NCBI RefSeq assembly: GCF_030817215.1
Contig: NZ_JAUSZA010000001.1
Location: 2,702,501 to 2,766,500 of the forward strand
Direction: 5' to 3'
DNA length: 64,000 bases
DNA from: Paenibacillus sp. V4I3
GTDB taxonomy: Bacteria > Bacillota > Bacilli > Paenibacillales > NBRC-103111
Shown: in pieces, positions 1-15,691 of the stretch
Layout of the letters: every line of letters starts with the position of its first letter
Position numbering within the stretch: the stretch's first letter is position 1
Notes under the pieces: generated by a model
Databases searched by the model: none
What the model was told of the DNA's origin: nothing
Seen by the model: the letters and a program-made list of their open reading frames with translations, nothing else
Program-made: the position numbers and the translations under genes

Positions 1-1
1 T

Positions 2-808: not shown

Positions 809-838
809 TTAATCGAAGTTCGCGAAAGAAGGTGAACA

Positions 839-1408
839 ATGGGAGCATCAACTACAGCTCAATTAATCGCAAAGGGTAAGGCTGAGAACGGATACAATAA
901 CGCTGGTATCTCATCTGACAACGCGTGGCTAGATTTTTTCAACGATGCGTTGCGTGATCTGGTCGATGAACTGAACATTCAAGAGGTACTGCCTACAATT
1001 ACACACGATGGGCTTACAAGAGAGCATGATCTGCCTGCAGATTATTACTCTCTTATTGTGTTTAACGATGGCAGTAATAACCGCATTGTCCAGCGCAGGA
1101 ACTACGATCAGCAGTATCCTCCAGGCTATTGGGTGTTATACAAGGGCAGCAAGTACGTGCTCGACCTGTATAACTTCTCATTCGCCAATACCTTCGCCGG
1201 ATTGTATCAGCGCTATGCAAAGGCGTTGTCATCCACTACAGACACGCCAGAGGTGCCGAGCGTAGGTGAGAGGGCCCTAGTATATTACGCGATATCTAAA
1301 GCACTGTATAACAATAATCAGATGGGTCAGGGACAAGAGTACGAGAAGAAGTACGAGCAGGAAAAATTGAAGATCCGCACAGCAGCGTCTCGAGCAAGGG
1401 GGCAATGA
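839..1408 (+). CDS. Phage head-tail adaptor-like protein
   Basis: The product has 189 residues and follows a clear AAGGTGA ribosome site. It is mostly helical, with an N-terminal helix around DNAWLDFFNDALRDLVDEL and a charged C-terminal tail (YEKKYEQEKLKIRTAASRARG). The size and its place just before a roughly 530-residue protein resemble the P22 gp4-gp10 pair, in which gp4 is the adaptor ring under the portal. I infer the adaptor role from gene order and predicted helical character rather than from a recognised motif. It ends 1 base before the next start, so the genes are likely co-translated. Confidence 0.5.
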   Translation: MGASTTAQLIAKGKAENGYNNAGISSDNAWLDFFNDALRDLVDELNIQEVLPTITHDGLTREHDLPADYYSLIVFNDGSNNRIVQRRNYDQQYPPGYWVLYKGSKYVLDLYNFSFANTFAGLYQRYAKALSSTTDTPEVPSVGERALVYYAISKALYNNNQMGQGQEYEKKYEQEKLKIRTAASRARGQ

Positions 1409-1409
1409 T

Positions 1410-3005
1410 ATGAGTCGCAAGAACATAACAGGTAGCCCAACAGTGGAAATGGATATCCCAAGTTTCGGAGGACTGAACACAGCTAAAACGTTCTCCGAGA
1501 TCGGGCTTTCCGAGTCTCCTAAGATGCTTAATAACCTTCCTCGTAAGATTGGCGGTTTAGCGAAGCGTGACGGAACGATACCACTCACGACAGCAGCTAT
1601 AGGAGCTATCAAGACGCTCACTAACCTACGCAAAGCAGGAGTTAACACAATTCTAGCTACGAGTGGCACAACGCTCTATAAATACGCTTCTGGTGCGTTT
1701 ACAGGGGCTACGATGACCAACGCGCTCAACCGTGCCGATATCGACGCGGCGCAGTTTAAAGATGCAAGCAGCAATGAGGTACTCGTTATCACGGACGGTG
1801 GTGTGCTGAAGTATTTCAACGGTACGGCTGTGGTGAATGTGACGCCTGCTGCAAATGATGCAACTGGTCCTGCTAATGTGTTGGCTACGCTTAATTCAAC
1901 GATGCCTCCCGTTGGCATACTTGTGCATAACAACAGGTTAGTCATATGGGGTAACAACACGGATCAGATCAGCCATAGTAAGCCGGGGTTTTACGATTAC
2001 TTCCGCGCTACCGATTATCAGCGGTTTGTTAGAGAGAATGACTACATTGTTCAGTGTGCTTCATTCTCAGGTGCGTTCATCGTGCTTATGCGGCGTCACG
2101 TAGGCGTTTTGTTCGGTGATGGATACACAACTCCTGCAACGAGCGAAGACTGGTCACAGGACTTTCTAGACACCACAGACGGGTGCGTGAATCCGAAGAG
2201 TGTTCAGCTGGTTATTTATCCAGATGGGCGAGAGGAATTGTTCTATCAGTCGGATAGAGGCGTACATGCAGTCTACACGCTTAACACGCTGTCACTTGAT
2301 ACGTCAGCTCGTTATGCAACAAAGAGCGTCACACAGTTTCAGATTGACTTCACATCGTTGGGAGTATCAAAAACAGAGTGGGCAAATGCTACGGCTTACT
2401 TTAAGGATGGTCGATACTGGCTGATTTATAAAGTCGGATCAACGTGGAAAGGACTTGTATTTGATACGATCGATCAGCAATGGAGGCCAGTGGACAACAT
2501 CAGCGCCAATTCCTTTTACCATGACGAGGATTACTTCTACTTTGCAGGCGATGAAGGACATCTGAAGGTGTTTGACAGCTCGTTATACAGCGATTGGTCA
2601 ACGTATAACAAGGCAGTCGGGACGAATACACCTATCAACTGGTACTGGTATAGCAAGCTAATGACGCCGAAGCTCACAGGATACGATCATTTATGGGATA
2701 TTCTCATGATCGAAGCGAAGCAGTTTAACCTCTCATCGACCATTGACATTGAGGTGAATACGTACAGGGATCGATACAGTTTGATTGGAGCTCTCAAAAC
2801 TGAGGTCATGATCATCGGTATCTCGAAGATCGGACAAGCGCAGATTCAGAACCCTAACCTGACAGATTACATCAATAATGCCAAACGAATCGGTCCCATG
2901 GGACTTAAGGGGCAATATGCTCAGATCAAAATGAGTAATAACCGTGATGAGCCAGTCGAGGTATACAGTACAAAGATGGAATGCAGGGTCATGACAAAGT
3001 ACTAG
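1410..3005 (+). CDS. Phage structural protein, packaged-DNA stabilisation / tail hub type
   Basis: The product has 531 residues, is beta-rich and lacks a signal peptide. It opens with SFGGLNTAKTFSEIGLSESP, a type of opening seen in proteins that close the head-tail channel, and continues with repeated short beta-strand blocks (GTTLYKYASG, DGGVLKYFNG, DSLYSDW) suggesting a propeller-like fold. Length and position after the adaptor-like gene resemble P22 gp10, a tail accessory protein that retains packaged DNA. No catalytic motif is visible. The structural class is fairly safe; the exact role is inferred from order. Confidence 0.5.
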   Translation: MSRKNITGSPTVEMDIPSFGGLNTAKTFSEIGLSESPKMLNNLPRKIGGLAKRDGTIPLTTAAIGAIKTLTNLRKAGVNTILATSGTTLYKYASGAFTGATMTNALNRADIDAAQFKDASSNEVLVITDGGVLKYFNGTAVVNVTPAANDATGPANVLATLNSTMPPVGILVHNNRLVIWGNNTDQISHSKPGFYDYFRATDYQRFVRENDYIVQCASFSGAFIVLMRRHVGVLFGDGYTTPATSEDWSQDFLDTTDGCVNPKSVQLVIYPDGREELFYQSDRGVHAVYTLNTLSLDTSARYATKSVTQFQIDFTSLGVSKTEWANATAYFKDGRYWLIYKVGSTWKGLVFDTIDQQWRPVDNISANSFYHDEDYFYFAGDEGHLKVFDSSLYSDWSTYNKAVGTNTPINWYWYSKLMTPKLTGYDHLWDILMIEAKQFNLSSTIDIEVNTYRDRYSLIGALKTEVMIIGISKIGQAQIQNPNLTDYINNAKRIGPMGLKGQYAQIKMSNNRDEPVEVYSTKMECRVMTKY

Positions 3006-3015
3006 GAGGAACGCA

Positions 3016-4158
3016 ATGGCTACACCGGGACCAATTAACAGAACATTACTCCAGTCGTTTTATCAGAATGCCGGGGATGTTTACGATGATACAAAGACAG
3101 AGGGGGCTTTTGGCACTCTAGCAGATCAGGTCGATGCAAATTATGACTATACTTCTGGATTAGTAGCAGGAGGGGTGTTACAGCCTTATCCTGCTTTTTT
3201 GTCGAGACAAGCCCTCATCAACGGTAACTTTGATGTTTGGCAAAGGGGAACGAGTTTCACAGGAGGCGTTTATTCAGCGGATAGATGGGTTGCGGTAGTT
3301 ACTGCTCCATCCGATAACACCGTAACAAGGCAATCGTTTACTTCTGGACAAACCGAAGTTCCAAATAATCCGCAATACTTTTTAAGATTTAGCCCTACAG
3401 TTAATCAAGCAGCAGGAAGTAATGTGCGGCAAAGAATTGAAGGAGTAAAAACGCTGTCGGGAAATACAGTGACCCTTTCGGTATGGTTAAGGTCGAGCGT
3501 TCCTATTTCGGCGACACTTCTTATAAGGCAAAATTTTGGAACTGGTGGAAGTCCGTCAGCATCAGTGGACTTTTCAACCAATGTAAGCGTCACGACGTTA
3601 TGGCAAAGGTTCACGTTGACAGCAACCTTGGGTAGTATTTCTGGGAAAACGTTGGGAACAAACAATAATGATTGCTTAGAAATTATATTTATTACAAACT
3701 TAGCCAATACCGCGCATTATTTTGATGTAGCCCAAGTCCAAGTCAACACTGGAAATCAAGCGTTACCGTTTCAACCGAAGAGTGTTGCAGAAGAGTTGAC
3801 GTTGTGTCAGCGGTATTATGAGAAAAGCTACGATTATCTAGTTGCTCCTTTAACCACATCTGGTGCAGGAATAGAAAAAAAAGTAGTACCATCAAATACT
3901 ATTGCAAGTTTTCAACCATATGGAAAAACTAGTTTCAAAGTTGTTAAACGAATCATTCCAACTATAACGGTATATCCTTTTACAACACCAACGAATACAG
4001 GTAGGGTTTCAGACAGTAATGGTGTCGATCTTGCCGCTGCAAGCGGAGCGACAACAAATATAGGAACCGGTGGATTTGATGTTTTTAATAACGCAGCATC
4101 ACAAACAACAGTTAATCAAGTTGTAATTTACCACTGGACTGCGGATTCGGAAATTTGA
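3016..4158 (+). CDS. Phage tail fibre / receptor-binding protein with carbohydrate-binding-like module
   Basis: The product has 380 residues and starts after AGGAGGAACGCA. The N-terminal 60 residues (LLQSFYQNAGDVYDDTKTEG) probably attach the protein to the virion. From about residue 68 comes the motif LINGNFDVWQRGTSF followed by YSADRW, typical of beta-sandwich domains in tail fibres and baseplate proteins. The middle part (VRQRIEGVKTLSGNTVTLSV and YFDVAQVQVNTGNQALPFQPK) completes that carbohydrate-binding-like fold. The C-terminal 120 residues are Thr/Asn/Gly rich and are the likely variable host-contact tip. It probably decides host range. Confidence 0.62.
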   Translation: MATPGPINRTLLQSFYQNAGDVYDDTKTEGAFGTLADQVDANYDYTSGLVAGGVLQPYPAFLSRQALINGNFDVWQRGTSFTGGVYSADRWVAVVTAPSDNTVTRQSFTSGQTEVPNNPQYFLRFSPTVNQAAGSNVRQRIEGVKTLSGNTVTLSVWLRSSVPISATLLIRQNFGTGGSPSASVDFSTNVSVTTLWQRFTLTATLGSISGKTLGTNNNDCLEIIFITNLANTAHYFDVAQVQVNTGNQALPFQPKSVAEELTLCQRYYEKSYDYLVAPLTTSGAGIEKKVVPSNTIASFQPYGKTSFKVVKRIIPTITVYPFTTPTNTGRVSDSNGVDLAAASGATTNIGTGGFDVFNNAASQTTVNQVVIYHWTADSEI

Positions 4159-4209
4159 CCTGTGTGAAATTAAAATTTAACTATCTACGGACTGCAAAGG
4201 AGCTAACAC

Positions 4210-4551
4210 ATGAACGATTATAAACACTTCATACGCATAGACAGCAACAACATTGTTATCGACGGTTACTCTGATTGGCAGGAAGACAAGCGCGGTACCG
4301 GAGAAATTCAACTATCTGGTGAATTTAGCCGACACTTTCAATTCCAATTAATGACCAGTAAAGGACAGTTCATGTATAAACTCGTGAATGGTGCTATGAC
4401 ACCAAGATCACAGACTGAACTTGATGCAGAATGGGCGGCACGTCCTCCAGCTATTAAAACAGAAATTGAGATCGTTAAAGAAGAGAACGCGCAGCAAAAT
4501 ACGCAAATCATTGATCTATGGGAATCACTACTCATTGCGGGGGTGTTGTAA
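4210..4551 (+). CDS. Small phage tail protein (XkdW-like)
   Basis: The product has 113 residues and follows AAGGAGCTAACAC. The N-terminal half (HFIRIDSNNIVIDGYSDWQ) is beta-rich. After DAEWAARPP a C-terminal helix runs to the end (EIVKEENAQQNTQIIDLWES) and is likely a coiled coil. This layout, placed after a fibre gene and before an XkdX-like gene, resembles PBSX XkdW and related fibre-accessory proteins. The role is inferred. The stop is only 2 bases before the next ATG. Confidence 0.5.
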   Translation: MNDYKHFIRIDSNNIVIDGYSDWQEDKRGTGEIQLSGEFSRHFQFQLMTSKGQFMYKLVNGAMTPRSQTELDAEWAARPPAIKTEIEIVKEENAQQNTQIIDLWESLLIAGVL

Positions 4552-4553
4552 TC

Positions 4554-4763
4554 ATGCCAATTTACGCATCGTTAACATCAGCATATGCAAAAGCTATCTA
4601 TCTGGATGGGACAAGACGGTTTTCGTCCATTCGACCTGAGTATGTGGAACCAACGAAACAATACGGGGCAGACAATTACACGATTGAACAGATCGACAAC
4701 GCTTTAGCGCAAGGGTGGATTACAACAGAAGAACATCAACAAACATTAGCCTACAGAGCATAG
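4554..4763 (+). CDS. XkdX-like small phage tail protein
   Basis: The product has 69 residues. I choose the ATG at 4554, directly after the previous stop and behind a G-rich ribosome site; the frame also contains an upstream ATG at 4518, which would overlap the previous gene. The C-terminal segment YTIEQIDNALAQGWITTEEH matches the short motif of the XkdX family (helix, then aromatic-Ile-Thr-x-Glu-Glu), common next to phage tail fibre genes. The function of XkdX proteins is not known. Confidence 0.55.
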   Translation: MPIYASLTSAYAKAIYLDGTRRFSSIRPEYVEPTKQYGADNYTIEQIDNALAQGWITTEEHQQTLAYRA

Positions 4764-4773
4764 GAGGTGACGT

Positions 4774-6693
4774 ATGGCTACGATAAGTCAAAATCAATAT
4801 GATTATCTCAATGGACTTGTAAAATCAGGTGGCGGCAATGGGGAGTGGGCAAAGTCACAGCTTAACGGAGCGACAGTAGCGAAACCGCAAACAACAACGA
4901 ACACAGGTATTCCTAAGACTACACAAAATCCAGTAGGGAACAATGGCTTTACACCTACACCATATTCACAAGGAAATAACTTTGGCGCAGGTAGTTCCAC
5001 ATCAAATACTTCGACTCCTCCAGCGATAACAGCTGCAGCCAACCCACAAACTAATAAAAGTGGACAAACTCAGCAGCCGTCATGGATGGGGAACCAATAT
5101 GGCCAAGTACAGGGTACAGATTGGTACTCAACGAACCCGACGAACCCGAACGCATCAAAGTACCGCGCTGATGGCTCTCCTGTAGCAAGCATTGGCTTGA
5201 GCGATGACAAGGGGTTTAAGTTCGATGGATACGGATCACCTGAGCAATTCAAACAGATTACGGATATGGTGGCAGGAAACAATGTCGCAGGGGTAGATCA
5301 ATTGGTGAGAGGTTGGATCAATGATGGAAAACTCATCTCAAATGATTCCATTTACAATAATATCAATAAAGTTGTAAATTCCAACACTTCAAAAGATCCA
5401 GCAATCACAGCAGCCGCATCATACACACCAGAAAAAAACTATGGCACCTTGATTCCTACTAACCAAATAGGCGTCGGCGCGCTAGGTTACGATCCCAACA
5501 ACCCGATAGTATCTAGTATCATGAATGGCGTAAATCAACAGACATCAGCGATCAATCAAGGGTTGAACTTGTCACAGCAGGCAAACAACGCGCAGGTTTC
5601 AGAGAACAACCGTTACAAAGATGAAAACACTGCAAAACTAACCAAACAAAAGTCGCAGGACTTAGACAATGCTGTGCAGTTTCAGAACCGTCGGGGTGGC
5701 TTCTATTCTGGTGGCCTAGACTATCAACAGGGCGCAATCAATAACGGCTACCAAGAGGCTGTGGGAGGCTTAGAACGTGACACTGCAGCACGTAACAATG
5801 CGATATGGAGCAATAATGCAGCATTAGCTAAGAATGCGTCTGACAATATCGCGATGCTATTGCAACAAGCGCCTGAAAAGATCCAAGCGGCCCTCACCGC
5901 TGCGGCTGAGAAGCAAGCAGAGGCTAAAGCTAAAGAACGTCAACAAAATCTTGACAATGCTGTAAAAGTTGCAGGAGTAACAGGTTACTACCAAGACCCT
6001 ATGGTACAAGAAGTACAACAAAAAATGGCCCAAAACAGTGATGCATGGTTTAATGCAAATGCAACTGAACGAGCGAGATTAGCAGCGGAAAATCAACAAC
6101 TAGGAGCTAGTATTGGTGCATACCAAGATGCACAAGGTAACTGGTTAGCTCCGGAACCTCCACCAACATTAGCTCGAGAAAAGCAAAAGTATGATCAAGT
6201 GTATGAAAAGTATCGTGATGAAGTTAAAGATGCTCAATGGTTATCTGACTTTGATCGCGATAACGAGCAGTGGGGTCTTGAGTTTGCAGTCGATAAAGCA
6301 TATAAAGCAGGACAGTTAAGTATTCAACAGCGTAATTCGGCCATTAGTGAAGCAAAAGAAGCTAGACTGGCCAGTGGTGCTTCCTCTAAAGCGGCGAAGG
6401 AAACAGAATCAGGTGGAGCTAAAGTCTCTAGTACTCAATTCAATGATGCATTTAAAACACTTCAACAAAAATATGGTGTAGCTCGTTATAGAGAGTCAGG
6501 TAAAGACTCAAAAGGAAATCCTATCTATGACGAAAGTGCACCACCAACATACGTAAATTCAACAAATCCCGATCAGCAAGCTAAGATCGTTACGGAAGTG
6601 CTACAACTTGGGTTAAATGATGAACAGACACTGCAAATGTGGAATAAACTTGGCATAACCGAGGAGCAAGCAAGACAACTATTAGGAGGATAA
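4774..6693 (+). CDS. Large Asn/Gln-rich phage virion protein, ejection-protein candidate
   Basis: The product has 639 residues and starts 10 bases after the previous stop behind TAGGAGGTGACGT. Residues 1-110 are low complexity and rich in Thr, Asn, Gln, Gly and Pro. The middle part is helical and Ala/Gln rich (QQAPEKIQAALTAAAEKQAEA) and likely a coiled coil, and the C-terminal 90 residues form a small charged domain. No enzyme motif or membrane segment is visible. Its position before an even larger protein and after the stabilisation-type gene suggests an internal or ejection protein like P22 gp7, gp16 or gp20. This is inferred from gene order and composition. Confidence 0.42.
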   Translation: MATISQNQYDYLNGLVKSGGGNGEWAKSQLNGATVAKPQTTTNTGIPKTTQNPVGNNGFTPTPYSQGNNFGAGSSTSNTSTPPAITAAANPQTNKSGQTQQPSWMGNQYGQVQGTDWYSTNPTNPNASKYRADGSPVASIGLSDDKGFKFDGYGSPEQFKQITDMVAGNNVAGVDQLVRGWINDGKLISNDSIYNNINKVVNSNTSKDPAITAAASYTPEKNYGTLIPTNQIGVGALGYDPNNPIVSSIMNGVNQQTSAINQGLNLSQQANNAQVSENNRYKDENTAKLTKQKSQDLDNAVQFQNRRGGFYSGGLDYQQGAINNGYQEAVGGLERDTAARNNAIWSNNAALAKNASDNIAMLLQQAPEKIQAALTAAAEKQAEAKAKERQQNLDNAVKVAGVTGYYQDPMVQEVQQKMAQNSDAWFNANATERARLAAENQQLGASIGAYQDAQGNWLAPEPPPTLAREKQKYDQVYEKYRDEVKDAQWLSDFDRDNEQWGLEFAVDKAYKAGQLSIQQRNSAISEAKEARLASGASSKAAKETESGGAKVSSTQFNDAFKTLQQKYGVARYRESGKDSKGNPIYDESAPPTYVNSTNPDQQAKIVTEVLQLGLNDEQTLQMWNKLGITEEQARQLLGG

Positions 6694-6697
6694 TCCT

Positions 6698-9600
6698 ATG
6701 TCAAAATATGATGACCTCAGAAAAGCCGCTGGTATAGCTCCAGTGGCTTCTTCAAGTAAGGGTAAAACAACTGGTAAGGGAGTAAACTTCTCTACGCGAG
6801 ACGTTACACAAGCTCCAATCATTGCACCTTCACCAGATGCTTTAGCTAGACCTGTACGACCTACACAAATGGTATCAGTGCCTAGTTTTGACGTTACACA
6901 AAGCGCTTTATTAAGGAATATTAATGCGAGTGCTGAACCTCCTTCAGATACACCAATACAGGATATCATTGCTAAAGGTGCGTCTAAGTTTGCTAACCTA
7001 CCTGTAGTCAAACCTGCATTGCATGGTTTAGGTACAGCAATTGAATATATTGAAGATTTGCCTGTCATTAAACAAGTTGGTGGAGCTTTATCAGCTGCGT
7101 ATAATACCGTAGCCGAAGCCCCTAGCGTCGCATCTAAGGATTGGATTTCACAAGCTAGGAAGAACATAGCAAATCTTGCTACGTCTGATACAGAGCCGAT
7201 TGAAAGAGGTATTAGAAACATTGTCGCAGGAGCTATGGATCCCGAAGCAGCAAGGGCTAGAAAAGATGAAATCATTGCTGAACGTACAGAAGGTTTAGGG
7301 CCAGTAAGTAAATTTGGGGTAGAAGCACTTAGTCAAGGTGCAACATCGGCGTTATCGTTAATTCCTGCAGCTGGCGTAGGTCGTGTATCTAAGTTAGCTA
7401 ATGTATCAGGTGACTTACTAAAATCTCCCGTTAAATCTAGTATATCAGCATTAAGAGAGATAGCCGCAGCACGTGCTGTTGATGACGTTGTAGAACCGAT
7501 TAGTCCTACTAGAGCTGATGAAGTTCCTGCAAACCCTGTGTCAGAACCTACACCTGATATTGTCAATCCCCCTGATGTGCCTGCTATTAAAGGGTCGTGG
7601 TTCACTCGTTTATTCGGAGATCAGCAAGGACTAGGGTTCTCACCGTTTGGTTCTAGAGCGAGTAATCGAATTATCACAACAGAACAACAGATCGTTAACA
7701 ACCCTATCAAATCTACAGTAAAAGGTGTAGTTGAAAATACAAAACAAACAAGTAGATCTGCGTATCAAAATACTGTAGATTACTTAAGCCCTTTAAAGAA
7801 AATAAGCCGTGAAACGTATGACACTGCAATGGATGCGAGTAGAGCAAACAACATAGGAAACACGATTATACGTGATAAATTTGTTGATTTAGAGGGAAAT
7901 GTAATCGGTAAAAGTTTAAATGATGTTATGGCGAACTCTCGTGGATTAGGCAAGAAAGTAGATGATTACTTAATTTTAAGACATGCCGTGGACCGCATGC
8001 GCCGCGGCGAGCGTGTATATGATGATGCCTTGCAAATGACACCAGAGAAGGCAGAACAAGCCATTGAAAAGTTGGAGCAGAGATTCCCGCAATTAAAAGG
8101 TATTGGTCATGAATGGAACGTTTACAATGAAAACATCCTTAAAACTGGTGTGAAAGAAGGTTTAATTACGCAAGAAGCTCTTGATGCCATGCGTACAAAA
8201 AATCCGAATTACGCAGCCATGAAACGCCAATTCACCACAGCAGAAAAGTTCTCGCGTCCAGGATTCGGTGGAAGTGGTGGATTCTCAGGCCAAAACGCTC
8301 CAATTAAAGCGGTTAGCCCAACAGGTTCAACACGGAGGATTGTAAGTCCGATAAGATCCGCAGTCGAGCAGACATACGCATGGCAAACTGCTATGTTAAG
8401 AAATCGCACGATGCAGGAGATTGTTAAAACAGTACAACTTGATCCCGAAGGTATGAAGGGGCTAGTTGAAATTGTGAAGAAGCCTACCACAAGCTATAAG
8501 AGTTTGGATGATGCGTTGCGTGAAGGTGGTTCAGAGGAATTCCTGAATCAATTAGACAATGACTTTAAATCCCTATTCAAACATGCTAAACCGGGTGATG
8601 AGAACATTGTCAGATCTATGGTGAATGGTAAACCTATATATGTTAAAGTAAACGATCCAGAGGCTGTTAAGGCTTTATTAGGCATGGGTTCTGAGGAATC
8701 AGGTTTGCTTATGAATGTGATGCAAACTTTATCCAATGCAACAAAACGTTCTGCAACTGGACTATTAGCACCGATGTTCTCCTTTAAAAGTTTAGTCGGT
8801 GATACTTTCCAAGCCGCGGTGCAATCACAAAATCCATTAAAACACGTTTCCGTAGATATTCCGGTTGCTATCTATAGTACCTTAGGTGATATATTGAAGA
8901 TTCCAGGTATGAAAAAATTATCTGAGGACTTCAGAAGGTCAGGCGGCGAGTATAGCTCTTTGTTACGCGGTGATCGTTCTGTTAATAGATCAGTTCGTGG
9001 CCTTCGCAGAGAAGCTCCTATATCCCCAGGAGGAGTTGTGAAAGGTGCTGAAATAGCGATTAAAGCCCCATTTAAAGCACTAGAGAAAGTAGCGGATGCA
9101 TCAGAGAACCTAAACCGTATGGCGGCATTCAGACGCGCTTTAGTTGGTAAGGAGCGAACGCCTGAGAATGTACGGGCCGCTATTAATGCAGCAAGGGAAT
9201 CCACTACCAACTTTTCTCGTAAAGGAGCATGGACTAGACAAGCAGAAGCCTTGGCACCTTATTCCAATGCAGCTGTACAATCTATCTACCGGCTTGCGAG
9301 ATCAGGCATTAGGAATCCTGTTAAAACGTTAGCTGGCGCGACATCATTAATTGTTGTACCTAAGCTGTACGAGTTTGCTAAATTCAATGATGATCCTGAT
9401 TATCAGAACTTACCTGCGCGTGAAAGGTACCGGAATATCATTTACAGCAAGAATGAAGATGGCACATTCAACAAAGCACCAATGCCAATGGAATACGAGG
9501 CTATGGCAGGGCTTATCACTGATATTTTGAATGATGTGATCAATAACGATCCACAAGCGTATAAAGGAACGTTAGACGCTATAGCTAACTCCTTAACGCC

Positions 9601-10291
9601 ACCAATGGTTTCTGGTGCTTTACAAGGAGTTACACAGGGCGGTGGACCTAAACAGTCATTAACTGGATTAACTAATTCAACTGTATTTGCACCTGTCTCA
9701 GCCGTTACTGGGAACAAATCATTCACAGGCGCGCCAATTGTACCACAAGACATTGAAAAGTTTTCAACACCGTATCAATTCAATGAGAAAACTAGCTCTC
9801 CTGCAAAGGTTATTGGCGAGAAAATTGGCATGGCGCCAATGACAGTTGACTATTTATTGAAACAATATTCAGGTGATTTCGGCAGGTTAGTATTGCCTCT
9901 TACAAGTGATGTTGGTTCAGGGACTGCTAAAAACACCTTGTTTAAAAGCTTTGTTGTAGATCCTGTATTTACAAATACTTTGACCAATGACTTCTACGAT
10001 GCATCCGAAAAATTAAAGCAAGCTCATCAAGACAACATTGGAAAGGAAGCTCCATTGCCTAAGTGGTACGACGACGATCTCAGGATACTTGTTACATCAA
10101 CTGCAAAAGGTTCGATTTCTAAGCAATTGTCAGATCTATCAAGCGAGAAAAAAGAAATAAACAAAGACACAACCATATCTGCAGGACAAAAATCACAAAA
10201 ATTGCGTGACATTCAAAGAAAAATGAATGATATTTATATTGATGCCAATATGCAAATGCAAAGGGCAGGAGTTCCAATGCAGAGTAGATAG
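6698..10291 (+). CDS. Very large phage internal virion / polyvalent-type protein (LPD38-like)
   Basis: The product has 1197 residues, the longest gene of the prophage. The N-terminal 300 residues are Pro/Ser/Val rich and disordered-looking. From about residue 340 to 900 there is a long helical core, including MQTLSNATKRSATGLLAPMF and a basic stretch around SSLLRGDRSVNRSVRGLRRE, resembling large polyvalent protein-associated domains such as LPD38. The C-terminal end is helical and Lys rich. No protease, lytic or polymerase motif is evident. Such proteins are thought to be packaged and injected with the DNA. Assignment to the LPD38 family is from memory of the motif and is uncertain. Confidence 0.5.
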   Translation: MSKYDDLRKAAGIAPVASSSKGKTTGKGVNFSTRDVTQAPIIAPSPDALARPVRPTQMVSVPSFDVTQSALLRNINASAEPPSDTPIQDIIAKGASKFANLPVVKPALHGLGTAIEYIEDLPVIKQVGGALSAAYNTVAEAPSVASKDWISQARKNIANLATSDTEPIERGIRNIVAGAMDPEAARARKDEIIAERTEGLGPVSKFGVEALSQGATSALSLIPAAGVGRVSKLANVSGDLLKSPVKSSISALREIAAARAVDDVVEPISPTRADEVPANPVSEPTPDIVNPPDVPAIKGSWFTRLFGDQQGLGFSPFGSRASNRIITTEQQIVNNPIKSTVKGVVENTKQTSRSAYQNTVDYLSPLKKISRETYDTAMDASRANNIGNTIIRDKFVDLEGNVIGKSLNDVMANSRGLGKKVDDYLILRHAVDRMRRGERVYDDALQMTPEKAEQAIEKLEQRFPQLKGIGHEWNVYNENILKTGVKEGLITQEALDAMRTKNPNYAAMKRQFTTAEKFSRPGFGGSGGFSGQNAPIKAVSPTGSTRRIVSPIRSAVEQTYAWQTAMLRNRTMQEIVKTVQLDPEGMKGLVEIVKKPTTSYKSLDDALREGGSEEFLNQLDNDFKSLFKHAKPGDENIVRSMVNGKPIYVKVNDPEAVKALLGMGSEESGLLMNVMQTLSNATKRSATGLLAPMFSFKSLVGDTFQAAVQSQNPLKHVSVDIPVAIYSTLGDILKIPGMKKLSEDFRRSGGEYSSLLRGDRSVNRSVRGLRREAPISPGGVVKGAEIAIKAPFKALEKVADASENLNRMAAFRRALVGKERTPENVRAAINAARESTTNFSRKGAWTRQAEALAPYSNAAVQSIYRLARSGIRNPVKTLAGATSLIVVPKLYEFAKFNDDPDYQNLPARERYRNIIYSKNEDGTFNKAPMPMEYEAMAGLITDILNDVINNDPQAYKGTLDAIANSLTPPMVSGALQGVTQGGGPKQSLTGLTNSTVFAPVSAVTGNKSFTGAPIVPQDIEKFSTPYQFNEKTSSPAKVIGEKIGMAPMTVDYLLKQYSGDFGRLVLPLTSDVGSGTAKNTLFKSFVVDPVFTNTLTNDFYDASEKLKQAHQDNIGKEAPLPKWYDDDLRILVTSTAKGSISKQLSDLSSEKKEINKDTTISAGQKSQKLRDIQRKMNDIYIDANMQMQRAGVPMQSR

Positions 10292-10301
10292 GGGTGTTTT
10301 T

Positions 10302-10481
10302 GTGAACGGAGTTCTATTTTTTTGGTATTTATTTTTTATCGCCAGCTTTTTGTTACCTGCATCAGCAATAGCGATGATACGCAGGAATAAAGAAGCTAGA
10401 TTTCCTGATTGGTTTAACCCGATACTCTATATGCTTGTATTCTTAGGAATACAATATTTTCTTATAACAAATTATCCATAA
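10302..10481 (+). CDS. Small two-segment membrane protein before the lysis genes
   Basis: The product has 59 residues and starts with GTG at 10302, 5 bases after AGGGGTG. Two hydrophobic segments (VLFFWYLFFIASFLLPASAIAM and FNPILYMLVFLGIQYFLI) are separated by a basic loop (RRNKEARFPDW). It lies just upstream of the lysis region, so an accessory lysis or holin-related role is possible, but I do not recognise a family. Confidence 0.45.
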   Translation: MNGVLFFWYLFFIASFLLPASAIAMIRRNKEARFPDWFNPILYMLVFLGIQYFLITNYP

Positions 10482-10487
10482 AATTGT

Positions 10488-10515
10488 GAGTCACCTTCGG
10501 GTGGCTCTTTTTATT
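10488..10515 (+). terminator. Intrinsic terminator after the structural operon
   Basis: An 8-bp stem (GAGTCACC/GGTGGCTC, one G-T pair) with a TTCG tetraloop is followed by CTTTTTATTTT. It separates the structural genes from the lysis genes. Confidence 0.8.
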
Positions 10516-10536
10516 TTACTAAAGGAGCTGATGCAA

Positions 10537-10734
10537 TTGATTGTCTTTGATGAATCTATGGAACTGGAATCGGACGTGTCAGACATTACCCTTCAATTCA
10601 TACAGGCTACCTATGGTCCTATGGTGAAGGATTGGCTTTTATTGCCCGGACCTGTTCCAATACTGGGGGTAAGCCATGTTGATCATCGAGATACTGGAGT
10701 ACATGTGGGAGCACAAAGGGTCGTTAACCTTTGA
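10537..10734 (+). CDS. Small hypothetical phage protein (XhlA-position)
   Basis: The product has about 65 residues. The ribosome site AAAGGAG at 10521-10527 is 9 bases from the TTG at 10537, better spaced than the ATG at 10531, so TTG is preferred; both are in frame. The sequence (ESMELESDVSDITLQFIQ) is acidic, then hydrophobic. The last 59 bases overlap the next reading frame. I do not recognise the family. Confidence 0.35.
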   Translation: MIVFDESMELESDVSDITLQFIQATYGPMVKDWLLLPGPVPILGVSHVDHRDTGVHVGAQRVVNL

Positions 10735-11191
10735 TGCGATCCTGCTTTTTTTCATGCGCAAGTGGCTGATACATGAGGCTCACAAGATACTGCACCTAGG
10801 CAGAGAAGGGGAGATACTTTGGATAATCGAGAGATTAGAGCGGATGACGGGAGAGAGATACGATGGACGACAGGATTTCTCGAAGCTAGTCAGGACCCGT
10901 TACATCGGGAGATATTATTCTTACTTACGCAAGGGAACAGAGTTGGCCAATCGGCAAAGGAGAGTGAAAACCATGGAAAACATTAAATGGGCAACGTTAG
11001 TACCGGGAGTGATCAGTGCGGCTAAATTGGTGCTGCAAAGCTTTGGCATCGACATTCCTGATGAGCATATAAATTCAATCGTTAACGGAGCTGCAGCAGT
11101 TGGAGCAATCGTAGCTATCTTCATGTCACACCGTAAACAGGAGGCGACGACGACAAATGGACCTACTATTTCCGGAGGATTTAATAAGTAA
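10676..11191 (+). CDS. Phage holin, with in-frame N-terminal extension or internal start at 10973
   Basis: The whole frame encodes 171 residues from ATG 10676, which has a G-rich upstream stretch. Its C-terminal 72 residues form a complete holin of a common phage type: MENIKWATLVPGVISAAKLV gives the first hydrophobic segment and INSIVNGAAAVGAIVAIFMS the second, with a short charged tail. The codon ATG 10973 has its own strong AAAGGAG at 10956-10962 and 10 bases of spacing, so the holin is probably made from there. The preceding 99 codons encode a hydrophobic then basic sequence with no stop before the holin. Holins form membrane pores that release the endolysin. The holin part is confident; the status of the extension is open. 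Confidence 0.65.
   Translation: MLIIEILEYMWEHKGSLTFDAILLFFMRKWLIHEAHKILHLGREGEILWIIERLERMTGERYDGRQDFSKLVRTRYIGRYYSYLRKGTELANRQRRVKTMENIKWATLVPGVISAAKLVLQSFGIDIPDEHINSIVNGAAAVGAIVAIFMSHRKQEATTTNGPTISGGFNK
10956..10975 (+). promoter_or_regulatory. Internal ribosome binding site and start for the short holin
   Basis: AAAGGAG at 10956-10962 is followed 10 bases later by ATG 10973, in frame with the longer reading frame that starts at 10676. It decides between a 72-residue and a 171-residue product. Confidence 0.6.
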
Positions 11192-11897
11192 CTTAGGCGT
11201 ACCGCAGCTGATCGATATCCGCGACCAATTGCCGGTTAATTCGAATTATACATGGGGGCAGCTGGCAGGCGTGCGGCCTCTTGAGGATTTAACAACAATT
11301 GCCTTGCATCATGACGCAATCAGTAAGACTAGTACGGCCGGCAATAGCGATCTGCAGCTTGCAACCAATATCGCTAAGTCACATATACGGCTTACTAAGA
11401 ACGAAGAGAAGGGAGACGCAGGTTTTCCTTACCATGTATGGATCCGCAACGGCAAAGCATACTGGACTAACAATGTGTTAGACAGAACGTATGGCGTAGC
11501 GAGTAACAACGGGTATACCGTACATGTATGCGTGTCTGGTGACTATGTAAACGGGGATTCGCTTACCGAAGATGATCGGCGCGTGCTAACCGCTGTGTGT
11601 GTTGATATAAGTAAGCAACTACCGAGTTACAAAGGAATCAAAGCTCATTGCGAACTGAACGCCACTAGTTGCCCTGGCTACGATTACAACCGCATTAAAG
11701 CTGATGTGGCAAGCTACGATCAAATGGTGCAAGAAAGGTACAGAAATAGGGTTAACGCTGCGTATAACACAGTACTTCGCTTTCAGGACCTGTATAATAA
11801 GGCGAAAGATCCTGCTTTCCAGTTCAAGGATGTAGCTCTCTGCAAGTTGGAGGACATTGCCGCGTACATGGTGCAGAAAGATTATATGAATCCGTAA
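11157..11897 (+). CDS. Endolysin, N-acetylmuramoyl-L-alanine amidase (amidase_2/PGRP type)
   Basis: The product has 246 residues and starts behind CAGGAGGCGACG inside the end of the holin gene (35-base overlap). The amidase_2 fold is visible: IALHHDAI near residues 47-54 supplies a zinc-ligand His, HVWIRNGKAYWTN and VHVCVSGDY form core strands, and AHCELNATSCPGY near 162-175 supplies the second His and the Cys ligand. It cleaves the amide bond between muramic acid and the stem peptide to open the cell at the end of infection. The C-terminal 60 residues are helical and may bind the wall. There is no signal peptide, as expected for a holin-dependent endolysin. Confidence 0.85.
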   Translation: MDLLFPEDLISNLGVPQLIDIRDQLPVNSNYTWGQLAGVRPLEDLTTIALHHDAISKTSTAGNSDLQLATNIAKSHIRLTKNEEKGDAGFPYHVWIRNGKAYWTNNVLDRTYGVASNNGYTVHVCVSGDYVNGDSLTEDDRRVLTAVCVDISKQLPSYKGIKAHCELNATSCPGYDYNRIKADVASYDQMVQERYRNRVNAAYNTVLRFQDLYNKAKDPAFQFKDVALCKLEDIAAYMVQKDYMNP

Positions 11898-11905
11898 ACG
11901 TTGAA

Positions 11906-11947
11906 GAGCCTAGTATGGGAAAGCATCCCGTCTAGGCTTTTTTGTTT
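11906..11947. terminator. Terminator between the lysis genes and the leftward operon
   Basis: The stem AGCCTAG/CTAGGCT with an inner GGGA/TCCC extension is followed by TTTTTTGTTTTT on the plus strand. It ends the endolysin transcript and also lies just past the last leftward gene. Confidence 0.8.
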
Positions 11948-12184
11948 TTAAAAATCCTTATTCTCCTCCGCACCCCTCTGTATCACCACGACCTGACCAT
12001 CTTCATATATGTCCACAAAGTAATCTACGCCATTGTTCCTCCTGTAGTTGTAAACCGCATGAGGGTGTTGCCTACCTTCCCAGCCGAAGAATGTTAACTC
12101 ACCGAACCGGTTAAAGTAATCCTTTGCTTCCTGCAACGATGTGAATTTAGGTAGTCTGGATATGTCTACGTTGCTTTTTCTCAT
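11948..12184 (-). CDS. Hypothetical phage protein, last gene of the repressor operon
   Basis: The product has 78 residues and is not recognised. Features are a basic start (MRKSNVDISRLPKF), a segment SLQEAKDYFNRFGELTFFGW and a beta-strand-rich end (DYFVDIYEDGQVVVIQRG). The start lies 1 base after the upstream stop, so it is translationally coupled. Being transcribed with the repressor, it is expected to be made in the lysogen. Confidence 0.5.
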   Translation of the reverse strand: MRKSNVDISRLPKFTSLQEAKDYFNRFGELTFFGWEGRQHPHAVYNYRRNNGVDYFVDIYEDGQVVVIQRGAEENKDF

Positions 12185-12185
12185 G

Positions 12186-12623
12186 TTAGATCACTTGTTT
12201 AACAGCGGCGAATAGTGCGTCGCAGAGTTCAACTTTATCCCAAGATATGTACTTTCCATCATCTTGTTTGAACGATACTCCAAACTTATCTTTGTGCGTG
12301 TCTAAGGAAAACTCAGTTTGATTACGTAAAAATTCAATCATCTGTCCTATGGAAAGGAGTGGATATAATTTATCTAAATTTCCCATATGCCCATTATCTT
12401 TATTTTCGTAAACAAAAAAAGCTACGAACACACCTTTTTCCCCATAAAATTCTCTAGGATGTTTAGCAACTGTGCTTAATACTACTGTCTTTCCGTTCGA
12501 TTGATTATTATTCTCGGCTGATAACGCATAATCGCCTTGCTTTGGCTTCCACCACTTCTGTATATGTACCTTCTGCTCATCCGTTAGTGTATTTAGATCC
12601 TCTATGGTTATCCTCTGCTTCAT
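12186..12623 (-). CDS. Hypothetical phage protein starting with an LTDEQKxxxxKWWKP motif
   Basis: The product has 145 residues and starts behind AAAGGAGA with 9 bases of spacing. The N-terminus (IEDLNTLTDEQKVHIQKWWK) looks like a short helical module found in uncharacterised phage and Paenibacillus proteins. The rest (LSIGQMIEFLRNQTEFSLDT and ISWDKVELCDALFAAVKQ) is mixed alpha/beta. No catalytic motif is seen. It overlaps the upstream gene by 4 bases. The function is unknown. Confidence 0.5.
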   Translation of the reverse strand: MKQRITIEDLNTLTDEQKVHIQKWWKPKQGDYALSAENNNQSNGKTVVLSTVAKHPREFYGEKGVFVAFFVYENKDNGHMGNLDKLYPLLSIGQMIEFLRNQTEFSLDTHKDKFGVSFKQDDGKYISWDKVELCDALFAAVKQVI

Positions 12624-12826
12624 GGGTTATCTGTCTCCTTTACCAAACGATCTACTTCGTCCGGAGTTTCTACAACATCCATAGTTATATCTTCTTTAAA
12701 AACTATCTTCGTACCAATAACCATGTTGTTTCTTTCGTGTTTAAGTGGCTCATAATACAAAACATTATCAACATTAATCCTGAAAACCGTATTTAGTTTA
12801 CGATTGTTCACTTTAATAAATCCCAT
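12620..12826 (-). CDS. FlbD-like small beta protein of the repressor operon
   Basis: AGGAGG is 1 base from the first ATG (12835) but 10 bases from the ATG at 12826, so the latter, giving 68 residues, is preferred. The sequence INVDNVLYYEPLKHE followed by GTKIVFKEDITMDVVETPDEVDRLV resembles the small FlbD fold: two strands, a linker, a strand, then a helix with a conserved ETPDEV-type end. FlbD-like proteins in phages have no assigned role. The similarity is at the pattern level only. Confidence 0.45.
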   Translation of the reverse strand: MGFIKVNNRKLNTVFRINVDNVLYYEPLKHERNNMVIGTKIVFKEDITMDVVETPDEVDRLVKETDNP

Positions 12827-12856
12827 ATATCTCATTCCTCCTCATAATTGTACAAG

Positions 12857-13111
12857 TCACCAAAATCGCTTTGGTTCGTTAATTAAAATAGCTGGCATAT
12901 CGAGTGGTAGGTAATTGCTGTATTTAACTCTCATAACTCCATGCTTAGTACGAACTTGAGTTACATCCTCCATATGGGCCAGTTTAGTTATTAATACTAC
13001 ATTTTCTATTTTATTTCCTTTTGCAACAAAATCATCGATATCCTTGCTGTTAAGATCAGGTAGCATGGAATCTATTAACTTCTGCAAATCCTCCATTTTA
13101 AACGTACTCAC
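12857..13111 (-). CDS. Hypothetical protein directly after the repressor
   Basis: The product has 84 residues and starts with GTG at 13111, behind GGAGGGATGAGTA; that ribosome site overlaps the stop region of the repressor gene. An N-terminal helix (FKMEDLQKLIDSMLPDL) is followed by a beta-rich part (VVLITKLAHMEDVTQVRTKH). I do not recognise the family. Its position suggests co-expression with the repressor. Confidence 0.45.
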   Translation of the reverse strand: MSTFKMEDLQKLIDSMLPDLNSKDIDDFVAKGNKIENVVLITKLAHMEDVTQVRTKHGVMRVKYSNYLPLDMPAILINEPKRFW

Positions 13112-13114
13112 TAC

Positions 13115-13354
13115 TCATCCCTCCGCATATTCAGCAATATCTTCAACCTTACAATTTAGCACATAGGCCAGTTTGATAAGATACTCCGCGCTCATTGCAT
13201 TCTGTAAAATTCCGTTATTATCAGTCTTCGTCATCTGCGAAAAGTAGGACTTGCTTATTCCTAACTGATCAGCGATCCATGATTTCTTTATTCCTCTAGC
13301 TGCTATGTATGATTCCAGTTTGCTACGTATAGGCAAATGTACCGAACTCCTCAT
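13115..13354 (-). CDS. Cro/CI (XRE) family transcriptional regulator, likely prophage repressor
   Basis: The product has 79 residues with an XRE helix-turn-helix: the recognition region is KKSWIADQLGISKSYFSQMT at about residues 22-41, followed by the usual helical tail (AEYLIKLAYVLNCKVEDIAEY). It starts behind AAAGGAGG. It is the first gene of the five-gene leftward operon and faces a rightward cluster across an 80-150 bp region with an inverted repeat, the normal layout for a lysogeny repressor with its operator. There is no C-terminal peptidase domain, so it would not be inactivated by LexA-type self-cleavage. Confidence 0.8.
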   Translation of the reverse strand: MRSSVHLPIRSKLESYIAARGIKKSWIADQLGISKSYFSQMTKTDNNGILQNAMSAEYLIKLAYVLNCKVEDIAEYAEG

Positions 13355-13398
13355 ATATGATTATCCTCCTTTCATTATGCTTGGATCCTAATTATAAC

Positions 13399-13410
13399 AC
13401 AATACTTTGT
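13399..13410. promoter_or_regulatory. Candidate repressor operator
   Basis: The inverted repeat ACAA-TACT-TTGT lies between the divergent repressor and rightward genes. Read leftward, a TATAAT box (plus-strand ATTATA, 13391-13396) lies beside it, but the -35 box is weak. The assignment rests on position and symmetry only. Confidence 0.35.
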
Positions 13411-13505
13411 ATATAACTTAAAAAAAGTTTAGTCATATGCGAATAAAGTCCGAGCATTCGACAATAAGTATGTTATACATCCCGTTAAATAAGGAGTTGG
13501 TCAGC

Positions 13506-13751
13506 ATGATTGGAGAGTTAGTCATAGCGACTTACATCGTGGAGTGTGCGCGTGGTTACTATGGGTACTGGAAGGAAGCGCAGAGGAAGAGGCGTGCATT
13601 AGATAACTTGGGTGAGTTTTTGAAGAGCTCTAAAACGTGGGAGGAGCTGCTGAAACAGATGCAGGAAGATAAGTTGAATAACCCCGTGTTATACACGCGA
13701 ATCCCTCAAACTTGGCTGTCTAAATTGTACATGAGATGCGTGAAGGAGTGA
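13506..13751 (+). CDS. Small phage protein with an N-terminal hydrophobic segment
   Basis: The frame opens at 13437, but ATG 13506 has a proper ribosome site (AAGGAG, 8 bases), giving 81 residues. The start MIGELVIATYIVECARGYYG is hydrophobic and may be a membrane anchor or buried helix. The remainder is basic and helical (EAQRKRRALDNLGEFLKSSK). It is the first gene of the rightward cluster that ends in the FtsK-type ATPase. The family is unknown. Confidence 0.5.
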   Translation: MIGELVIATYIVECARGYYGYWKEAQRKRRALDNLGEFLKSSKTWEELLKQMQEDKLNNPVLYTRIPQTWLSKLYMRCVKE

Positions 13752-13756
13752 GCAGT

Positions 13757-14020
13757 ATGAGCAAAAAACGCGAATATATGATGAGTCCATTTAGGCAAGG
13801 TTTGGATGAGGACATTCGCAAGAAGTACAACGAGATACCCGATGGTAAGCGTGCAGAGGTGCTGAGAGACGCGTTTCGGTTATGGTGCGGTATCGATAAG
13901 AAGTTAGTTTACGAAGCGACAGAGAAGCCCATCAAGCAGCCTACACGTCCACCATTCTTAGCGAAGGGAGTGAACAACAATGGAAATAGCCTTCACAATA
14001 TTGGGCCTCGGCGCTCTTGA
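13757..14020 (+). CDS. Small basic phage protein
   Basis: ATG 13757 follows AAGGAG with 8 bases of spacing and gives 87 residues. The middle segment (LDEDIRKKYNEIPDGKRAEV then LRDAFRLW) could form a ribbon-helix-helix-like or other small helical DNA-binding fold, but this is weak. The C-terminal tail is Pro/Asn rich and overlaps the next gene by 41 bases. Confidence 0.42.
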   Translation: MSKKREYMMSPFRQGLDEDIRKKYNEIPDGKRAEVLRDAFRLWCGIDKKLVYEATEKPIKQPTRPPFLAKGVNNNGNSLHNIGPRRS

Positions 14021-14168
14021 TGCCATTATCTCAGGTGTTCTCAAGGAAGCTAAGCAGCAAAACAAGATCATTTTCGTCAGAATCTCGATGTATGTCACCG
14101 TAGCTATCATCGTGTTAGTCGAGGTTTCTAAGCTCATCAACTATGCCAGGGTGGTGTTTGGTATATGA
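13980..14168 (+). CDS. Small membrane protein upstream of the FtsK-type ATPase
   Basis: The product has 62 residues and starts behind AGGGAGTGAACAACA. It has two hydrophobic segments: IAFTILGLGALDAIISGVL and VRISMYVTVAIIVLVEV. It overlaps the ATPase gene by 4 bases (ATGA), so the two are translationally coupled and may form a membrane complex. No family is recognised. Confidence 0.5.
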   Translation: MEIAFTILGLGALDAIISGVLKEAKQQNKIIFVRISMYVTVAIIVLVEVSKLINYARVVFGI

Positions 14169-15271
14169 TACTTTTCGCTTTGGGAGCAGCATGTATGGTG
14201 GCGAGTATAGGAAGCGCGGTGGTTATAGCTAAGGGTGGAGGAGGGGATGCGAGGAAAGATAAGCTTCACGTCTGCTTTGATCGAGCTAAGCTGTACATCA
14301 GGCAGAGGATTGAGGAGAAATGGGTGTTTACTTACCCGACCGTCGATGGTCAAGAAGAGTTCAAGGAATATAAGGAGTATACTTTTACGCTGCCGATCGG
14401 TGTGGACCCCGACAGAGTATTCAAAAGCTACTGGGTGTTCAAACAGGGATTCGGTGAGCACATCGATATTATTGGCGATACGGCAACGTTTAAACTTAAG
14501 GTGTATAACAAAGGGTTAGAGCAGTTTGATTACAATGTGTTAGATGTACCAACTGCCGGCATTAGACTGCCGATCATCGTCGGCCGGTCACGTGAAGGTT
14601 GGGAAGTATACGACATGGTGGAGAATCCTCACTTGCTCATTGCAGGGGAAACGGGCAGCGGTAAGAGTACGCACATACGGGCGCTGCTGACCACACTCAT
14701 TCATACTAAGTCGCCCGATGAGCTGCAACTGTACCTTGCCGACATGAAGCGCAGCGAGTTCCATCTATTCAGAAACGTGCCGCATGTAGTTGAGGTCGTC
14801 ACGGAGACGGAAAGGCTTATTGAGGTACTGAAGGAGCTCGACATAGAAATGAAGCATCGTGGAAATCTGTGCGACCAGTACGAAGTGTCCCACGTGGACG
14901 ATCTACCCTTCAAGATGCCATACATCATCGTTTGCGTAGATGAGGTTGCGCTGCTTAAAAAGGAAAAGGAGATCATGCGGATCTTAGAGGACATAACAGC
15001 AATTGGAAGGGCACTTTCAACATTTGCAATACTGTCTCTTCAGAGGCCTGACGCGGAGGTGCTAAACGGGAAGCTGAAGCAAAATCTAACAGTGCGAATG
15101 GCATTCAAACACGCGGATGGGATTAACTCAAGGATCACTCTAGGATGCGAAGGTGCAGAGGATATCAAGGCGAGTGAGTCAGGACTCATGTTATACAAGA
15201 GGGATGGGATTAAGCGAGTGCAGAGTCCGTATCTGAGTTTGGTGGAGGCTAAGAAGTTATTGAAGGGATAG
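14165..15271 (+). CDS. FtsK/SpoIIIE-type DNA translocase ATPase
   Basis: The product has 368 residues. A single N-terminal hydrophobic segment (LFALGAACMVASIGSAVVIA) is followed by a beta-rich linker and the motor domain. Walker A is GETGSGKST at about residues 161-169 and Walker B is YIIVCVDEVA at about 252-262; the motor is completed by AFKHADGINSRITLG and the LMLYKRDG end. There is no gamma winged-helix domain, so strand-orientation reading like that of chromosomal FtsK is not expected. Relatives are coupling proteins of ICEBs1-type elements (ConQ) and small plasmids. Here it is the last prophage gene, ending 25 bp before the cotJC remnant. A role in moving element DNA is inferred. Confidence 0.82.
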   Translation: MILFALGAACMVASIGSAVVIAKGGGGDARKDKLHVCFDRAKLYIRQRIEEKWVFTYPTVDGQEEFKEYKEYTFTLPIGVDPDRVFKSYWVFKQGFGEHIDIIGDTATFKLKVYNKGLEQFDYNVLDVPTAGIRLPIIVGRSREGWEVYDMVENPHLLIAGETGSGKSTHIRALLTTLIHTKSPDELQLYLADMKRSEFHLFRNVPHVVEVVTETERLIEVLKELDIEMKHRGNLCDQYEVSHVDDLPFKMPYIIVCVDEVALLKKEKEIMRILEDITAIGRALSTFAILSLQRPDAEVLNGKLKQNLTVRMAFKHADGINSRITLGCEGAEDIKASESGLMLYKRDGIKRVQSPYLSLVEAKKLLKG

Positions 15272-15300
15272 GTAAAATAAAAGTAGATATCCTTTAATGG
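15272..15300. other. Probable right prophage attachment junction (attR) inside cotJC
   Basis: To the left, the phage ATPase gene stops at 15271. To the right, CotJC homology begins at the codons for MVNKLTKDAT (15297 on). A TAA at 15273-15275 shows the coat frame is not open into the phage. The crossover must lie in or near these bases, but the core cannot be defined without the left junction, which is outside the window. Confidence 0.6.
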
Positions 15301-15647
15301 TTAATAAGCTTACAAAAGACGCAACCATCGATCAACTGAAGGCCGCTGGTCTGGACGATCACTATGTGAGCCACGACAAAGCGCTCTTCTATCAGAATGC
15401 ATCCGGTGTACCTTGGACGGCCGCCTACATACAAGCCAAAGGAGACCCCATAGCGGACCTCTATGAGGATATTGCCGCAGAAGAGAAAGCAAGAGCCACC
15501 TATCAATGGTTGATTGATGTAACCGATGACGTTGACCTGCAGGACAGTCTAAAGTTCCTCCGCGAGCGGGAGATTGTGCATTCCCTGCGATTTAGAGAAG
15601 CTGTTGAAATTTTGAAGGATGATCGGGAAGCACAGAAGGTTTTTTAA
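15297..15647 (+). pseudogene. cotJC: cotJC 3' fragment (spore coat manganese-catalase-like protein), interrupted by the prophage
   Basis: The 116 codons encode the C-terminal part of CotJC: VNKLTKDATIDQLKAAGL, then SGVPWTAAYIQAKGDPIADL, YEDIAAEEKARATYQWLID and FLREREIVHSLRFREAVEIL, which retain the ferritin-like Glu/His ligands of the Mn-catalase fold. Family members are about 190 residues, so roughly the first 70 are missing. The ATG at 15297 is an internal Met of the family and has no ribosome site. The missing part is expected left of the prophage. CotJC is a mother-cell coat protein in B. subtilis. If the prophage excises precisely during sporulation the gene could be restored; otherwise it is a broken gene. 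Confidence 0.8.
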
Positions 15648-15691
15648 GCAGGAGGTGAGGGCTAGGACGAGGTAGCTAGGATTAGGGATAA

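Follow-up and report, generated by a model that had tools for sequence, protein, structure and literature searches.

A prophage between the two halves of cotJC

The window is a 64,000-nucleotide stretch of the Paenibacillus sp. V4I3 chromosome (positions 2702501-2766500), taken from a one-contig Paenibacillales genome of 8,171,314 bp. cotJC is a mother-cell coat gene in B. subtilis, and a first-pass annotation made from the letters of the window had proposed that a prophage sits inside it. A genome profile search located an ORF with CotJC homology at 15297-15647 of the window, matching positions 76-198 of the Pfam Mn_catalase family (PF05067; E 1.1e-36). The ORF begins at 15297, where homology had been said to start abruptly, but cotJC homology proper starts at codon 77/78 (15306-15309), so that the ATG at 15297 is only partly cotJC. 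An N-terminal part is missing, as had been noted, with a true figure of 76-77 codons instead of about 70 residues. No ribosome-binding site was evident upstream of this ORF on reading the sequence, in line with the same annotation, and the phage ATPase gene placed 25 bp before it encodes an FtsK/SpoIIIE-like protein of 368 aa (14165-15271, + strand; PF01580, PHROG 1358), the last gene before the right end of the element. The cotJC 3' part thus delimited occupies 15306-15647 on the + strand and comprises codons 77 to 189 plus the stop; its in-frame partner, codons 1-77, lies at chromosome 2676958-2677188.

The sole other PF05067 match in the genome covers positions 1-80 of the family and was found 40.6 kb leftward on the same strand (chromosome 2676958-2677191). 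This 5' half, whose presence to the left had been predicted, is the third ORF in a row, preceded by two that we take to be cotJA and cotJB and directly followed by a 530-aa large serine recombinase (LSR) gene, at the end where a recombinase had been expected. The LSR gene is on the opposite strand with its stop side 18 bp inside the element's left end, and its product contains Resolvase and Recombinase domains and matches the PHROG 95 integrase (6.3e-97). Both cotJC halves score over the PF05067 cut-off, and their joined product has 189 aa.

A core common to both ends, also anticipated, was identified as ATAAG; placed in register, the element ends share ATGGT..ATAAG. Joining the halves at ATAAG gave an open 189-codon CotJC frame reading MVYKLTKD, as in the joined gene of Paenibacillus sp. 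H1-7, and a join at ATGGT was likewise in frame and gave MVNK; exact excision could thereby restore the cotJC frame, as the annotation had envisaged. The attR site spans 15283-15330 (+ strand), with the phage arm at 15283-15306, the shared ATAAG core at 15304-15308 and cotJC from 15309. In attP, the reciprocal product, 36 of 48 positions are self-complementary around a centre between 15306 and 15307, the next-best centre reaching 22 of 48, and this dyad would fit an LSR site with AA as the exchanged dinucleotide. No intact copy of cotJC was found in the genome, because a 77-base query across the joined site matched it only as the two separate halves. Of the sequence observations that would have counted against the intervening element proposed in the annotation (an intact cotJC elsewhere, an absent 5' fragment or an absent core), none was made.

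Measuring 40,620 bp, the element starts about 25.3 kb to the left of the window, at chromosome 2677189; its right-hand part occupies positions 1-15306 (+ strand) and the remainder lies to the left. Phage genes separate the two cotJC halves, which bears out the proposed prophage. Besides the ATPase gene, those recognised in the window, all on the + strand, encode a phage structural protein of the head and packaging type (839-1408; PHROG 399, a weak match at E 4.2e-5), a head-closure-like protein (1410-3005; PHROG 578, E 2.8e-6), a 1197-aa phage protein with an LPD38 domain (6698-10291; PF18857, PHROG 9854) and an endolysin/amidase-like protein (11157-11897; PHROG 1493 and 822, with PF01510 just under the cut-off). 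The PHROG names assigned among 20 element proteins scanned were terminase large subunit, portal, scaffold, major head protein, head closure, endolysin, RecE, RecT, DnaC-like loader, repressor and LSR; tail proteins were not identified among these 20. The element looks like a temperate phage, and its gene set seems functional. An FtsK/SpoIIIE-like ATPase gene was observed near one end of four cotJC elements, namely that of the window, those of genomes G097 and G108, and the small one of G379.

A single assembly is available for this strain, and a misassembly could in principle have brought the phage into the gene. The probability of such an artefact is negligible: both junctions carry matching half-sites, and an element at the same codon with a 75% identical LSR is present in the separate one-contig genome of H1-7 (G097). 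Read from its anatomy, the locus demonstrates LSR-mediated integration at codon 77 of cotJC. The structural prediction of the first-pass annotation was confirmed where sequence can test it, and its interpretation overall is partly supported.

Split cotJC genes within and beyond Paenibacillales

The frequency of split genes was estimated using CotJC residues 1-60 as a query; a cotJC whose match lay in an open frame below 180 aa was called truncated (all others had 189 or more). This query covered 264 of the 392 order genomes (those other than G264-G391), and matched in 103 of 104 family genomes and in 68 of 80 and 70 of 80 further order genomes. A truncated cotJC was present in 21 of the 241 order genomes with a CotJC N-terminus (11, 5 and 5 by batch), a count that excludes G014, where a 41-residue fragment sits beside an intact copy. 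The second half was located in 20 of the 21; the G248 locus falls at contig ends and was left unjoined. Eight further split cases were flagged by partial matches outside the N-terminal set (within G264-G391) and then checked; the partial-match search does not enter the rate, since intact catalases can mask a split cotJC and its matches give only a lower bound.

In all 28 pairs examined both halves were open and abutting, and their join gave a 189-codon open frame, which tests only for open frames in the halves and for the absence of a gap between them, because joins were made in codon register at the shared run near the site (in G150 a 2-base run, the longest run being off the core). Insertions fell at three sites: codon 77 (site A, 5 pairs), codon 64 (site B, 14 pairs) and about codon 124 (site C, 9 pairs). 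In 20 pairs the halves shared a contig and were separated by 7 to 73 kb; in the other 8 they lay on different contigs. Two genomes, G069 and G073, have an intact copy in addition to the split gene. The best attP dyad of G073 was off the crossover; in the other 7 complete elements it was at the crossover. In G408 (P. albidus) and G409 (Paenibacillus sp. FSL A5-0031), several separate cotJC 3' pieces were observed per genome, a pattern that multiple elements or successive insertions might produce.

LSR relatives were collected with an alignment of four LSRs whose elements all reside in cotJC; among at least 402 relatives, 80 loci in named genomes were retained, and 4 of these loci were too short downstream to test. 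Among the matches listed, a cotJC fragment was found downstream of the LSR in 42 of 76 loci and was absent in 34; 35 of these 42 lie outside Paenibacillus, Clostridia included. This set overlaps the Paenibacillales set in H1-7, P. contaminans (G103) and P. thermotolerans (G108). Mapped on a tree of 93 LSRs, the cotJC label required 9 changes versus 29.6 when shuffled, and 0 of 500 shuffles were as low. In 20 genomes chosen for having a cotJC fragment, the 3' piece started at 61-64 in every case and the 5' piece ended at 66-70 in 18; it ended at 53 in G393 and was absent in G405 among the matches listed. Several of the 20 contain another intact family member. Of ten non-Paenibacillus pairs fetched, 7 gave an open CotJC-like frame on joining; G395 can be joined but has its N-terminus out of frame, G393 and G394 are damaged in the 5' part, and the codon register of the G399 join is off by three codons.

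Other genes were also observed downstream of the LSR relatives. Partial GH18 genes are present at four loci (L113, L114, L128 and L150), one with LysM domains; they look like SleL/YaaH-type hydrolases of the spore cortex or coat. At two more loci (L103 and L116) the neighbour is a partial asparagine synthase gene (Pfam Asn_synthase).

These neighbourhoods bear on an ordinary lysogeny, in which cotJC would be a mere landing site, chosen because it is conserved and cheap to lose, and lysogens would sporulate without CotJC, the gene being restored only at induction or loss of the phage and outside any developmental programme. The asparagine synthase gene is not obviously related to sporulation, which favours such a landing site, whereas the preponderance of cotJC and GH18/LysM genes next to LSR relatives amounts to a bias towards sporulation genes.

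Selection on cotJC was assessed by Nei-Gojobori counts over 182 codons. Between the joined gene of this strain and that of G027, its nearest intact relative, 25 changes are synonymous and 1 is non-synonymous; in the comparison with the joined G020 gene the counts are 23 and 0. Across 8 of the 28 split genes, in pairs that are not independent of one another, the median dN/dS was 0.047 for 30 split-intact pairs versus 0.050 for 68 intact-intact pairs (dS 0.2-1.5). Such low values speak against old pseudogenes and also fit young insertions. They are relevant to the proposal of a dead insertion, in which cotJC is a pseudogene and the element is unable to leave. Decay does occur elsewhere: three of the 10 non-Paenibacillus pairs are damaged as described above, and G063 combines a broken LSR with a frameshifted 3' piece next to an intact copy. 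The present strain encodes a full-length LSR with its domains, each cotJC half has an open frame and the changes to G027 are almost all synonymous, and we consider a dead insertion very improbable here. The G063 locus is itself complex: the cotJC locus is duplicated (97.8% identical) with one intact cotJC, a site-B-like right junction lies about 15 kb beyond that copy with a 3' piece carrying a 1-bp shift (read by eye), and the LSR was matched only in pieces, which we read as decay.

Recombinase lineages, small elements and free phages

Of 27 elements that could be tested, 26 have an LSR at one end; G118 was left out as its contigs end there. The 7.2-kb element of G069 gave no match to three LSR queries. 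The LSR of this strain is 38-46% identical to the site-B LSRs and 20-29% identical to the site-C LSRs and to the site-A LSRs of G020, G379 and G338; therefore two lineages act at site A, a single one at site B and a third at site C. In a quick tree, the site-A LSR of this strain nested among Paenibacillus site-B enzymes with fork support of 85 to 99, suggesting that the target has shifted by 13 codons.

The elements of G020 and G379 are about 16.6 and 13.4 kb long, apparently non-phage, and have kept an LSR. Their LSR genes run in the same direction as cotJ and start 57 and 75 bp past the junction, so that the cotJ promoter could supply the enzyme. Both this retention and the spare intact cotJC of G069, the only genome with an LSR-free element, argue against cotJC being a mere landing site. 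Eight proteins of the G020 element (L036) were scanned and gave strong matches to the candidate anti-phage systems PDC-S32 and PDC-M26A and weaker ones to others.

Small reading frames were compared between elements. Among the elements examined, a class-specific ORF follows the cro-like gene in 9 of the 11 from site B and in 5 of the 6 from site C, and these ORFs are candidates only for a recombination directionality factor (RDF). Comparison of the small early ORFs in the element of this strain singled out no class-specific candidate. Near the ends of 10 of 22 cotJC elements (for example L003:7619-7843, minus strand), across LSR lineages, there is a gene for a small protein of 69-83 aa that resembles helix-turn-helix proteins and often has D-L-Y-E-W at its C-terminus. 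Terminator-like hairpins were searched upstream of the LSR genes; the gene start was located in only 12 of 22 elements, which did not include that of this strain, and the result was not used. A scan for sigma-E-like promoters upstream of cotJA gave no match in the 3 of 11 loci in which cotJA was located.

Relatives of the phage were also detected in virus contigs. A cotJC fragment was found at 13 of 80 IMG/VR LSR loci. A contiguous attP-like dyad beside the LSR, by a criterion fixed after examples had been seen, was present at 7 of the 56 IMG/VR loci whose contig continues past the LSR (6 different sequences, as L219 equals L222) versus 3 of 1120 random windows. The dyad core ACNGANGAR fits the Thr-Glu-Glu codons of site B. 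These unbroken sites indicate that relatives of this phage exist with an intact attP-like site. A named example is the P. larvae phage phiIBB_Pl23 (KF010834.1), whose LSR shows 44% identity and has a contiguous dyad next to it with the core ACAGAAGAGT, fitting Thr-Glu-Glu-(Phe) codons; it would use site B, whereas this strain carries a site-A element. Separately, 45 IMG/VR stretches matching the site-B attP motif were taken as chance, since only one had an LSR-like match (weak, 24%).

Probable excision in the mother cell and its precedents

The reading that we consider probable is that a temperate phage, integrated by its own LSR into codon 77 of cotJC, is excised in the sporulating mother cell and the gene is rebuilt. 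A small directionality factor made during sporulation would turn the LSR to excision, cotJC would be restored and CotJC would enter the coat; in G020 and G379, reading of the LSR gene from the cotJ promoter could contribute. Excision in the mother cell would cost the phage nothing because the forespore retains the prophage and the mother cell dies. In many spore-formers, three sites of cotJC are used by LSRs of three deep lineages.

The sporulation-specific excision step is likely, judging from precedents. Sporulation excision has been measured for SPbeta, phi3T and skin, as described in PMC4191935 and PMC6957869. The nearest in anatomy is SPbeta in spsM of B. subtilis (SprA as LSR, SprB as RDF), which has the size of an active phage, an LSR near one end, a short core with inverted repeats and in-frame restoring of a spore-envelope gene (PMC4191935, PMC6957869). 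Its LSR gene is reported to have a vegetative promoter and its RDF gene stress and sporulation promoters (PMC6957869). It differs in its target gene and in that excision has been measured and the RDF is known, where the cotJC element offers anatomy. Elements with their own recombination unit inside mother-cell or sporulation genes include skin in sigK, vfbin in spoVFB, vrin in spoVR, gin in gerE, yin in yabG and phi3T in kamA. They are mostly described as defective or small, whereas the cotJC element carries many phage genes; unlike them, cotJC is one gene with three sites and three LSR lineages.

Ordinary lysogeny draws on several further points. The prophage looks functional and the open halves fit it too, sporulation control of excision is here reasoned from other systems, and B. 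subtilis mutants lacking CotJC, a protein located in the spore coat, reportedly make spores without apparent defect (PMC12122855), so that the pressure to excise may be weaker for cotJC than for sigK. Set against these are the known elements of like anatomy that do excise in sporulation (PMC4191935, PMC6957869), together with the target bias and the small LSR-bearing elements described above. We regard ordinary lysogeny as rather unlikely, and favour developmental excision from cotJC.

The closest reported case is the phi027 prophage of C. difficile, which excises spontaneously and whose attR lies beside the CotJC-like gene CDR20291_1465, named "cotG" in one paper (PMC11222575, PMC12122855). 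The accessible text of these two papers treats this neighbour as a downstream gene of 678 bp and not a split one, and does not propose reconstitution. The targets named in the accessible text of PMC4191935, PMC5595907, PMC10747680, PMC6957869, PMC10083194, PMC9341999, PMC12122855 and PMC11222575 are sigK, spoVFB, spoVR, spsM, gerE, kamA and yabG, and cotJC is not among them. The word 'catalase' is absent from the main text of the 2022 LSR survey (PMC10083194). No element inside cotJC was recognised in the open PMC literature, and the novelty of cotJC as a target is provisional, because subscription papers lie outside that search.

Excision from sporulation genes is described from single genes in few strains (PMC4191935, PMC5595907, PMC10747680, PMC6957869). 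We lean, with modest conviction, towards cotJC being a general parking place in endospore-formers, where three deep LSR lineages would independently recognise three short conserved stretches. About one in eleven cotJC-bearing Paenibacillales, and many Clostridia, would then have only halves of the gene in vegetative cells, to be rebuilt in each mother cell. The cotJC set supplies serine recombinases with inferred att sites. If excision is developmental, it would also provide a comparative system of one gene with many independent insertions, by phage-like and apparently non-phage elements, in which the genomes with a spare copy would serve as natural controls. It raises the question of what makes a coat catalase gene so frequent a target.
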